The position numbers and the translations under genes are program-made. DNA of 64,000 bases from Leifsonia xyli (GTDB lineage Bacteria; Actinomycetota; Actinomycetes; Actinomycetales; Microbacteriaceae), in the NCBI GenBank assembly GCA_001647635.1, contig CP014761.1, positions 434,001 to 498,000 of the forward strand, given 5' to 3'. This document shows, one piece after another, positions 50,353 to 56,307 of the stretch. The notes under the pieces are model-generated. The model worked only from the letters and a program-made list of their open reading frames with translations, had not been told where the DNA came from and made no database searches. Position 1 is the first letter of the stretch, and every line of letters begins with the position of its first letter.

Positions 50353-53300
50353 GTGCCCGACAGCCCCGCCCGCACCGCTCGATCCGCCCGCACCGGCCCT
50401 CCGGCCGACGTGCCCGCCACGTCGCCGACGCCCGGACTGCTGCTGCGCGGCGACGAGGCGCCGCCCGCGCGCACCCTCATCGACGTCCTCACCGAGACCG
50501 CCCGCCGCTTCCCCGATGCTTCGGCGCTGGAGGATGCGGCGGGGGCTCTGAGCTACCGCGAGCTGCTCGCCCGGGTCAACGCCGGCGCCGCGGTGCTGCG
50601 CGAGAGCGGAATCCGGCGCGGCGACCGGGTCGGAGTGCGGATGAGCTCCGGCACCCGCGACCTGTACCTGGCCATCCTGAGCGTGCTGGCCGCGGGGGCG
50701 GCCTACGTGCCGGTGGACGCCGACGATCCGGAGGAGCGCGCCGGCCTGGTCTTCGGCGAAGCGGGCGTGCGGGGCGTGCTCACGGACGCCGGGCTGGAGC
50801 TGACGGGCGAGGAGAACGCGCGTCCGGTCTTCGCCGCGGAAGCGCCGCATCCCAGCACCGCCGCCGTCCCGGTCATCGAGCCGCCGACGCCGGAGGACGA
50901 CGCCTGGATCATCTTCACCTCCGGCTCGACGGGCACGCCGAAGGGCGTCGCCGTCCGCCACCGGTCGGCGGCCGCGTTCGTGGACGCCGAGGCGCGCCTC
51001 TTCCTGCAGGAGGAGCCGATCGGCCCGCAGGACCGCGTGCTCGCCGGGCTGTCGGTCGCCTTCGACGCGTCGTGCGAGGAGATGTGGCTGGCGTGGGGCC
51101 ACGGCGCCTGCCTGGTCCCCGCGCCGCGCTCGCTCGTCCGCACCGGGATGGACCTCGGCCCATGGCTGTCCGCCCGCCGCATCACCGTCGTCTCGACCGT
51201 GCCGACGCTCGCCGCGCTCTGGCCGGTGGATGCCCTCGACAACGTCCGCCTGCTCATCTTCGGCGGCGAGGCGTGCCCGCCCGAGCTGGTGACCCGCCTC
51301 GGCCTGCCGGGCCGCGAGGTCTGGAACACATACGGACCGACCGAGGCGACGGTCGTGGCCTGCGCCGCGCCCCTCGTGCCCGGCGAACCGGTGCGGATCG
51401 GCCTCCCCCTCGACGGCTGGGACCTCGCGGTCGTGGACACCGACGGGCATCCCGTCGCGGACGGTGTGGGCGGCGAGCTCGTGATCGGCGGCGTCGGCCT
51501 CGCCCGCTACCTCGACCCGGCGAAGGATGCCGAGAAGTACGCGCCCATGCCGACCCTCGGCTGGGAGCGCGCCTACCGCAGCGGGGACCTCGTCCGCTTC
51601 GACCTCGAGGGTCTGTTCTACCTGGGGCGCGCCGACGACCAGGTGAAGCTCGGCGGCCGCCGCATCGAGCTGGGCGAGGTGGAGGCGGCGCTGCAGCAGC
51701 TGCCCGGCGTCTCGGGTGCGGCCGCGGCGGTGCGCCGATCCGCGGCGGGGAACGACGTGCTGGTCGGCTACCTCGCCGTCCCCGATCCGGACGCCTTCGA
51801 CCGCGCCGCGTCGCTTGCGCACCTGCGGGAGACGCTGCCCGCCGCGCTCGTGCCGCTGCTCGCGGTCGTGGATGAGCTGCCGGTCCGCACCTCGGGCAAG
51901 GTCGACAAGGCGGCCCTCCCCTGGCCGCTGGAGGACGCGGACGGCGACGGCGGCGGCGCGGCGACCGACGACCCCGTGGCGCAGGCGCTCGCCGCGGACT
52001 GGCGCAGCGTCCTCGGCCTCCCGGTGTCGGGCCCCGACGACAACTTCTTCGACCTCGGCGGCGGCTCGCTCGCCGCGGCGCAGCTGGTCTCGCTCATCCG
52101 GCAGCGGCATCCCGACATCACTGTCGCCGACATCTACGCCACCCCGCGCTTCGGCGCGATGGCCCAGGTGCTGGCCGAGAGCTCGCCGTCGTCCTCGGCC
52201 GGCTCCACCCACGTCGTCCCGCCCACGCCGTTCCGGATGCGCGCGCTGCAGACGGTGCTGGGCGTCCCGCTGTTCATCCTGGGCGGGATCAGGTGGCTGC
52301 TCTACCTGCTGACCGCGTCGCTCCTCCTACGGCCGCTCGGCGGCTTCGACGTGCTGCCCGCGGTGGACCCCGTCTGGCTCGTCATCGGCCTCGTCGTCTT
52401 CGTGACGCCATGGGGCCGGATGGCGATCTCGATCGTCGCCGCCCGGCTGCTGCTGCTCGGGTGAAGGCGGGCGACCATCCGCGCGGCGGAGGCGTGCACC
52501 TGCGCCTCTGGCTGGCGGAGCAGGTCGCCCACCAGGTCGGCGCGGCCAGCCTCGCCGGGGCCCCGTGGATCCTGTACTACGCACGTGCTCTCGGCGCGAC
52601 GATCGACCGCGGCGTCGACCTGCACACTCTCCCGCCGGTAACCGGGATGCTGCGCATCGGCGCCGGCGCCTCGATCGAACCCGAGGTGGACCTGGCCGGG
52701 TACTGGATCGACGGCGACGTCGTCCGCATCGGCGAGATCAGGATCGGCGCGGGCAGCTCGGTCGGCGCTCGGAGTTCGCTCATGCCGGGCACGAAGATCG
52801 GCCGCAACGCGACCGTCGCCCCGGGCTCCGCGGTGTTCGGGCGGGTTCCGGCCGGCCAGAACTGGTCGGGCTCCCCGCGGTCCGCATCGGCCGCGCCCAC
52901 GACTGGTGGCCGCGGGAGCGCCCCGAGCGGCGGACCCGCTGGGTCGCCGCGTACGCGCTCGCCTCGGTCGTCGTGTCGCTGGTGCCGGTGGTGGCTCTCG
53001 CCGTCGGCGCCGCGGTGGTGGCCGTGTTCGTGCGCGGCGCAGCGAACTGGGGCGACGTCGTCGCGCGGGCCGCCGTCGGGCTGGTCCCGGGAACGCTCGC
53101 GGCCGGTGTCGTGCTCGCCGCCCTGGTGGTCCTGTTCGTCCGTCTGCTGGGCATCGAGATGCGCGAGGGCGTCTACGCGGTGCGCAGTCGCGTCGGCTGG
53201 CAGGCGTGGTCGACCGAGCGTCTGCTCGACCTGGCACGCACCATCCTGTTCCCGCTGTACTCGAGCCTCTTCACGCCGGTCTGGCTCCGGATGCTGGGCG

Positions 53301-54355
53301 CGCGGGTCGGCCGCGACGTGGAGGCGTCGACGGTGCTGCTCCTCCCCCGGATGACGCGCATCCGGGACGGCGCGTTCCTCGCCGACGACACGCTGGTCGC
53401 GTCGTACGAGCTGGGCGGCGGCTACATCCGGATCGCGAACGTCGACATCGGCGCACGTGCGTTCCTCGGCAACTCCGGGATGGCCGGCGCGGGCAACCGG
53501 GTGCCGCGCGACGGCCTCGTCGCCGTCCTGTCGTTCGCGCCGCGCAAGGCGAAGGCGGGCTCCTCGTGGCTCGGCTCTCCGCCGGTGCGGCTGCGGCGGC
53601 AGGCGCAGGATGCGGACCTCTCGCGCACCTTCGAGCCGCCGCTCGGCCTGCGGGTCGCCCGCACCGCCTGGGAGCTGCTGCGCATCGTCCCGGTGTTCGT
53701 CACCTGCGCCATCGGGCTGGGGGTCGTCATCGCGCTCGGCGCGATCCACGCGTCCTGGGGGCTCGGGTGGGCCATCGTCCTCGGCGGACCCGTGCTCCTG
53801 CTGGCCGGCGCGGTCGCCGCCGCTGTGAGCACCGCGGCGAAGTGGGCGCTGCTCGGGCGGCTGCGCGCGGGCGAGCATCCGCTCTGGTCATCGTTCATCT
53901 GGCGCAGCGAGGTGTCGGACACGTTCACCGAGATGGTCGCCGCCCCCTGGTTCGCGTGGGCCGCCGCCGGGACGCCGGCGCTGGTGTGGTGGCTGCGCAG
54001 CCTCGGCGCGCGGATCGGCTCCGGCGTGTGGATCGACAGCTACTGGCTGCCGGAGGCCGACCTGGTCACGCTCGGCGACGCATCCACGGTCAATCGGGGG
54101 TGCGTGGTGCAGACGCACCTGTTCCATGATCGAATCATGAGCATGGACCACGTCACCATCGAACGCGGCGGAACGCTCGGCCCGCACAGCGTCATCCTGC
54201 CCGCCGCCGACATCGGCCGGGAGGCGACGGTCGGACCGGCGTCGCTCGTGATGCGCGGCGAGACCGTCCCCGCCGGCAGCCGGTGGAGCGGCAACCCGAT
54301 CGGTCCGTGGCGCGAGGTCGTCGTGCGCGAGTACCGGGCGCGGGTCGGCGGATGA
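50353..54355 (+). pseudogene. Pls/PosA-type membrane NRPS gene, interrupted by two frameshifts
   Basis: This is an A-PCP-membrane-LbH synthetase of the Pls/PosA type (poly-lysine-synthetase-like). The adenylation domain (about 45-510) has IIFTSGSTGTPKGV, NTYGPTE, YRSGDLV and LGRADDQVKLGG; the carrier Ser572 is in DLGGGSLAAAQL. The frame is lost at G-run 52459-52461 (LLLLG-stop) but resumes one base shifted with HLRLWLAEQVAHQVGAASLA. It breaks again near 52876-52880 before WWPRERPERRTRWV. Adding two bases gives 1334 residues, normal for this family. About six membrane helices alternate with hexapeptide (LbH) regions. Its stop overlaps the M1 peptidase start (ATGA). Either sequence errors or real decay. 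Confidence 0.78.
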
Positions 54356-55656: not shown

Positions 55657-55662
55657 GCCGGG

Positions 55663-56307
55663 CTAGCGCTGCTCGGCGATCGTGACGACGAAACCCGGTT
55701 CGCGGACCGGGCGCAGTCGGTAGCGCCGGCCGTCGAGCGCGGCGCCGCGAAAACCGAGCCGGACGGCGTCGGGCACGACGCGCAGGCCGCGTCCGTCGGC
55801 CTTCAGCACGGCCTCGACGGCGGTCCAGCGGCGGAGCGGGTCGCCGCGGCCGGGCGCGAGGTCGTCGATCGCTGCGCGGCGCTCCTCGGGCACATCGGCG
55901 GGTTCGGCGTCGATGCCCACGGGGACGCGTGAGGCGACGGCGAAGGCACGTCCGCCGGCGTGGGCGAGGGCCAGGTGCAGCGAGCTTCCGGCCACAGTCG
56001 GGCGTCCATGCGAGAGGCCGCAGTCGGGGCAGCTCGCCTCGATCTGGATGCGGGGCTCACCCGCGTCGGCGGCTGCGGCGAACAGGGCGGCGCGACCCGC
56101 CAGGAATCGTCGCCGGACCCCATCGTCGCGGAGGCCGTCGAGTCGGCGGCGGTCGCCACCGGACAGGCGCCCGGCGATGTCGTCGGCGGCTGCGCCGTAG
56201 GGCACGACCACGAAGGCGGGCACCGCATCCTCCGTTCGCCGCAGCCGACGGACCGATGCTACCCTGCGGTCCGCGAGCAGGCTATCGACCGGTGGCGCCG
56301 CGGACAT
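55663..56307 (-). CDS. 4'-phosphopantetheinyl transferase
   Basis: A 214-residue Sfp/AcpS-superfamily enzyme. VGIDAEP (Asp metal ligand) and RWTAVEAVLKADGRGL (W-EA-K motif, Lys partly replaced) are the family signature. It attaches phosphopantetheine to carrier proteins and faces the NRPS-peptidase pair, ending 7 bases from the peptidase stop. It is the probable activator of the NRPS carrier Ser. Confidence 0.82.
   Translation of the reverse strand: MSAAPPVDSLLADRRVASVRRLRRTEDAVPAFVVVPYGAAADDIAGRLSGGDRRRLDGLRDDGVRRRFLAGRAALFAAAADAGEPRIQIEASCPDCGLSHGRPTVAGSSLHLALAHAGGRAFAVASRVPVGIDAEPADVPEERRAAIDDLAPGRGDPLRRWTAVEAVLKADGRGLRVVPDAVRLGFRGAALDGRRYRLRPVREPGFVVTIAEQR

Follow-up and report, generated by a model that had tools for sequence, protein, structure and literature searches.

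The stretch of Leifsonia xyli DNA analysed here, 64,000 nucleotides of contig CP014761.1 (positions 434,001 to 498,000 of the forward strand; below, the window), holds at window positions 50353-56307 a synthetase gene of the Pls type that lies in three reading frames, an M1 metallopeptidase gene and, facing the two, a gene for a phosphopantetheinyl transferase (PPTase). The question that this arrangement raises is whether the genes make up a locus for epsilon-poly-L-lysine (epsilon-PL), and whether the PPTase belongs to it. Judged from sequence, we consider it very probable that this is the Leifsonia epsilon-poly-L-lysine locus, with a coupled M1 peptidase, a PPTase that would mainly serve Pls, and two frameshifts that are most probably sequencing errors. 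The source genome is a single contig of 3,596,761 bases, and the anatomy (Table 1) agrees, coordinates included, with a preliminary description of this DNA as a Pls-type synthetase overlapped by an M1 gene through ATGA and faced by a PPTase.

The substrate assignment is carried by the adenylation (A) domain. Its best match in the PDB is 7WEW, an epsilon-poly-L-lysine synthase, at an E value of 5.7e-185, which excludes chance, and 209 of 301 residues are identical over the compared stretch. With the pocket positions numbered as in GrsA, the specificity pocket reads DAESIGTVVK, equal to 7WEW at all ten positions and exactly the ten residues that had been aligned by hand in the preliminary description; the lysine code given there, DAESIGSVCK, was set aside and the solved Pls domain used for comparison. 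The spacing of these GrsA-based positions agrees with the PosA residue numbers given in PMC10522769 (the PMC sources are cited throughout from parts of their text). The same pocket is found in 24 of the 25 intact Leifsonia relatives, and the remaining one has DAESVGTVVK. Since all ten pocket residues equal those of 7WEW, lysine is the best-supported substrate as far as the pocket predicts it, which favours the lysine-type reading proposed earlier; the non-basic code that had been named as the contrary outcome did not appear. As for the rest of the synthetase, the N-terminal part holds one peptidyl carrier protein domain (PCP; PF00550), and the C-terminal fragment scores above the cut-off of TIGR02353 ('Pls/PosA family'), a profile against which the intact Pls of a close relative scores 695 bits. 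A Pfam search of an intact relative's Pls returned AMP-binding, PP-binding and Hexapep only, with no condensation or thioesterase domain, and the C-terminal hydrophobic segments counted in three relatives number six in L060 and L059 and five in L041, where Pls enzymes are characterised by six membrane helices and three tandem C-terminal domains.

Conservation of the neighbouring genes was followed in three samples: 28 Leifsonia genomes, the source genome included, with Pls in 26; a family sample of 150 genomes, an even selection from a larger group searched for Pls at E 1e-60, with Pls in 59 (G000, G015 and G023 are shared with the genus sample); and 80 named loci, the best of 578 confirmed stretches, among which L139, L140 and L144 repeat genus loci and L150 and L156 repeat family-sample genomes. 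The peptidase matches Peptidase_M1 (9.5e-30) and M1_N (3.8e-12) in Pfam, and its coupling to the synthetase was as first described, with the ATG at 54352 overlapping the Pls TGA at 54353-54355 by 4 bp (ATGA) and its own stop ending at 55656. In the genus this gene adjoins Pls downstream in 25 of 25 relatives, with an ATGA overlap in 24 and GTGA in one, and in all 25 the frame that starts at the overlap leads into the zinc motif. In the family sample, all 59 Pls genomes have a close homologue immediately after Pls and in the same orientation. The gene was also found in all 105 scanned loci (102 distinct after subtraction of the three genus repeats), and in each of the 80 named loci it shares the strand of Pls; spacing in these, taken from stop-to-stop frames, is approximate (the L197 frame starts about 2 kb away). 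The zinc motif HExxH-18-E is present in 106 of 106 aligned sequences, that is, the present one and the 105 loci.

The Pls-M1 pair is one with which many actinobacteria probably build and degrade the antimicrobial polymer epsilon-PL. In Streptomyces albulus, pls and pldII are adjoining genes that overlap by 4 bp in one operon (PMC4361855); they are translationally coupled, and repression of pldII leads to a longer polymer (PMC9223678). By gene position, 4-bp overlap and M1 zinc site, the Leifsonia peptidase would be the counterpart of PldII, and the two systems are further alike in the family of the terminal domain and in the pocket (compared with 7WEW). They differ in that the Leifsonia record is frameshifted and has a facing PPTase, whereas no PPTase is described beside the S. 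albulus pair in the parts of PMC4361855 and PMC9223678 cited. The preliminary description held that such a locus would be notable in Microbacteriaceae, a claim overtaken by the literature, in which the operon is established: two species of the same genus, Leifsonia virtsii and L. williamsii, have published epsilon-PL clusters with a 100% antiSMASH match (PMC10628120), PMC12067966 reports such clusters from Microbacterium and Agrococcus and includes L. virtsii in its comparison figure, and an NAPAA cluster has been reported in Herbiconiux (PMC10011130). Outside the family, the pls of Corynebacterium variabile yields epsilon-PL when expressed in S. coelicolor (PMC8117764). The Pls-M1 pair is thus already known, genus and family included (PMC10628120, PMC8117764, PMC12067966, PMC10011130). 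The PPTase is another matter: it goes unnamed in PMC8117764 (0 occurrences), and the text of PMC12067966 names neither peptidase nor PPTase (0 occurrences), in the parts cited, though its comparison figure could show the gene. We found no description of a Pls-PPTase linkage in the open-licence literature, itself incompletely covered; PMC8949500 mentions a PPTase in other context. The consistent presence of a second PPTase is a modest addition to the known pls-pldII pair, and the locus opens no new class of system.

The PPTase facing the pair, as originally noted, sits on the minus strand and carries the motifs GIDAE and WTAVEAVLK, which fit the Sfp-type motifs GIDxE and WxxxEAxxK. Over 50 aligned sequences the D is kept in 49/50, as are the W, E and K (each 49/50). 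The source genome has two PF01648 matches, one AcpS-like and the other the PPTase beside Pls, and two PF00550 matches, the Pls PCP and, at window 42788, a lone fatty-acid-type acyl carrier protein. All 26 Leifsonia genomes with Pls have two or more PF01648 matches, and each of the two without Pls has one; the second PPTase is of the linked type in 15 of the 26, namely the source genome and 14 of its 25 relatives. In the family sample a second PPTase occurs, among the matches listed, in 59/59 genomes with Pls versus 14/91 without, a count in which 58 of the 59 rest on PF01648 and one (G038) on a separate search, in which some of the second matches may be AcpS-like whether or not the genome has Pls, and whose Fisher test is not corrected for relatedness. 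The 59 placements comprise 45 convergent downstream, three upstream on the same strand, two far away and nine without a placement. In one of the two distant cases, G097, the PPTase lies 4.8 kb upstream of a second, uncounted Pls copy; among the nine, PPTases are listed on other contigs in G079 and G116, and G113 has two at a distance. A linked PPTase is found in 35 of 40 Micrococcales loci (35/37 without three repeats) among the best 80 of 578 stretches. None was found by profile in the 40 named loci outside Micrococcales, where the profile could miss other PPTase types, e.g. in Mycobacteriales, and where two loci are unclassified metagenome-assembled genomes. The loci L165 and L193 are short and could stop before reaching a PPTase.

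Because a second PPTase co-occurs with Pls, we read the enzyme as a dedicated activator, predicted to serve Pls mainly or only. More generally, the Micrococcales epsilon-PL locus is probably often a three-gene unit with a dedicated PPTase, for which another PPTase substitutes where the linked one is missing, as in Leifsonia; if this is true, a second PPTase would largely predict Pls. The preliminary description had asked for the trio of genes in relatives, and it is the pair that holds throughout the 25, the PPTase being linked in 14 and elsewhere in the other 11; the trio is thus conserved in part, short of the outright lack of conservation that had been named as a contrary outcome. We also considered whether other clusters of nonribosomal peptide synthetases supply the PPTase where it is unlinked. 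This idea found no support: of the 28 Leifsonia genomes, only G008 has condensation domains (E up to 1e-10). Two further observations concern the distribution of these genes. The smallest genomes of the genus sample, G003 and G027 (2.7 and 2.6 Mb), are those without Pls and without a second PPTase, which looks like joint loss. G097 and G159 have two Pls-family genes each, and the copy without M1 has a PPTase 4.8 and 7.7 kb, respectively, from its terminal-domain match, possibly for a second polymer.

The working that we envision for the locus begins with the PPTase, which would put the phosphopantetheine arm on the PCP serine. The A domain, whose pocket is identical with that of 7WEW, would adenylate L-lysine and load it onto the arm, and the membrane C-terminal domains, by their homology to Pls, would link the lysines by isopeptide bonds via the epsilon-amino group and export the polymer. 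The coupled M1, if it acts as PldII does, may degrade or shorten the product, either protecting the producer or setting the chain length. The analysis places a probable antimicrobial-polymer locus in 26 of the 28 Leifsonia genomes and in 59 of the 150 from the family sample. The PPTase is a likely activator to include in heterologous expression of Pls, and its company may help genome miners to judge whether a cluster can work.

Several observations weigh against this reading. The sequences show which genes are present, the identity of the pocket, the motifs, and the linkage and co-occurrence of the genes; activity, product, export and the target of the PPTase are predicted from these. C. variabile, with a working pls, itself made no detectable polymer (PMC8117764), so that a genome may have the locus and yet not produce. 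The M1 protein was likened to S. albulus PldII by position, overlap and M1 motif, and while PldII is described as lying outside the membrane (PMC9223678), simple hydropathy alone gives the Leifsonia protein only one moderate hydrophobic stretch, residues 36-60, with a maximum of 1.67 at a threshold lowered to 1.2. The PPTase scores 19.8 bits against Pfam ACPS (PF01648), below the gathering cut-off of 25, which some linked PPTases of relatives exceed (e.g. those of G026 and G009), and in 11 of the 25 Leifsonia relatives the enzyme is unlinked and sited elsewhere in the genome. The ratio of nonsynonymous to synonymous substitution rates (dN/dS) of the three Pls pieces against eight relatives, 0.06-0.17, lies at its upper end slightly above the values among the relatives, 0.05-0.13, though far from neutral, and a recent true loss in this strain is compatible with the available data.

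Such a loss is the likeliest of the rival explanations: the strain would have lost Pls by two real frameshifts, leaving the peptidase and the PPTase as leftovers. The two sites, near 52440-52470 and near 52860-52900, are those reported in the preliminary description, and they leave the middle part of Pls to the frame 52293..53354 and the C-terminal part to the frame 52565..54355. Broken here, the gene is a single open frame in 25/25 genus relatives that have it, which is what loss in one strain would look like, and a split copy also occurs in G102, from another genus of the family, whose Pls terminal domain is divided over two frames (G102:C1:2188642-2190701). Set against this is the state of the assembly itself, in which sufB, generally needed in actinobacteria, is split as well (G000:C1:649960-651302; entries L136 and L137), the sole match over the family cut-off spanning positions 2-301 and the remainder being encoded in a different frame; close by is a third, weak match, probably sufD. 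Of 216 genes of a relative compared over 400 kb, 11 are split here, versus 8 of 217 in the reverse comparison, raw counts that include probably spurious rows. With every piece required to be at least 80% identical, a filter we applied afterwards, the figures are 7/216 versus 0/217; among the seven, a DnaJ-like gene identified by eye may be a start-site artefact. Moreover, no third break is seen in Pls, and the M1 and PPTase frames are open. With sufB also split, conserved genes split more often than in the relative and dN/dS low, sequencing error is the likely, though not proven, cause of both frameshifts, and we regard a true pseudogene as unlikely while granting it real weight.

Two other explanations are easier to set aside. 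The PPTase might belong to some other pathway and stand beside Pls by chance or inherited gene order, and its unlinked position in the 11 Leifsonia relatives, its absence by that same fallible profile from the surroundings of Pls in the 40 loci outside Micrococcales and the 14 of 91 Pls-free family genomes with a second PF01648 match among those listed would all fit. We consider this improbable in view of the second PPTase that every Pls genome of both samples has at some site, among the matches listed, of the single PF01648 match in each of the two Pls-free Leifsonia genomes, and of the scarcity of other clients, with only two carrier domains found in the source genome and condensation domains in only one of the 28 genomes of the genus sample (the search of the relatives did not extend to type I polyketide synthases). 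It might also be that the same architecture serves to polymerise ornithine, beta-lysine or diaminobutyrate, given that the Pls/PosA family produces several cationic polymers and that pocket residues 4, 5 and 8 make no substrate contact in PosA (PMC10522769). The closest such comparison is Acinetobacter baumannii PosA, the enzyme of delta-poly-L-ornithine, which is of the same family and has the same terminal-domain type; its pocket, DMEHNGTVSK, differs from the Leifsonia one at positions 2, 4, 5 and 9, and the word 'peptidase' is absent from the main text of PMC10522769. A PosA-like substrate was rejected on this comparison, and with it the 'PosA-like' of the preliminary description as far as substrate is concerned. 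Alanine at position 2 is assigned to lysine enzymes, PosA having methionine and the PDAP synthetase phenylalanine (PMC10522769), and PMC8117764 describes a peptidase partner for pls but for none of the three other synthetases in its comparison. Together with the full identity to the 7WEW pocket, this makes another substrate very improbable, and epsilon-PL remains the product that we predict for the locus.

Table 1. Features of the predicted epsilon-PL locus, in window coordinates
Feature	Position	Strand	Basis
Pls N-terminal part: adenylation domain, PCP, first membrane helices	50353..52464	+	Pfam, PDB match, pocket alignment; ends at stop from first frameshift
PCP serine predicted to carry 4'-phosphopantetheine	Residue 573 of Pls N-terminal part, within FFDLGGGS	+	
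Pls pocket codon starts	51064, 51067, 51076, 51193, 51256, 51262, 51328, 51352, 51355, 51898	+	
Pls middle part: start of C-terminal region, Hexapep (left-handed beta-helix) repeats	52458..52901	+	Second frame; TIGR02353 positions 67-214, 155.5 bits, 1.8e-45; Hexapep; 78-99% identity to the matching stretch in 25 relatives
Pls C-terminal part: remaining membrane helices, tandem domains	52862..54355	+	Third frame; TIGR02353 positions 207-695, 504.7 bits, cut-off 423.1
M1 metallopeptidase, in the position of PldII	54352..55656	+	Peptidase_M1, HExxH-18-E, ATGA overlap with Pls stop
PPTase, convergent with the Pls-M1 pair	55663..56307	-	Weak PF01648 match below cut-off; motifs; linkage

Beyond the PPTase, a phage-type integrase gene at 57180-58652 (+; Phage_integrase, 9.8e-19) adjoins a tRNA-like stretch at about 57040-57130 (-), seen by eye, and the two perhaps mark the edge of an integrated element; the tRNA-like stretch was not called by ARAGORN or Rfam, and one search gave no 16-base match to it elsewhere within 400 kb. 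That a mobile element marked by this integrase carries the locus was considered, and recent transfer is unlikely because pls is present in 26 of 28 members of the genus. On the upstream side lie a small Rho_N-like frame at 49919-50281 (+), with 23.9 bits against a Pfam cut-off of 24.9, and a gene for a NUDIX protein at 49273-49857 (+), and a frame at 49234..50223 on the minus strand, matched by tblastn, is probably a shadow of these two opposite-strand frames.

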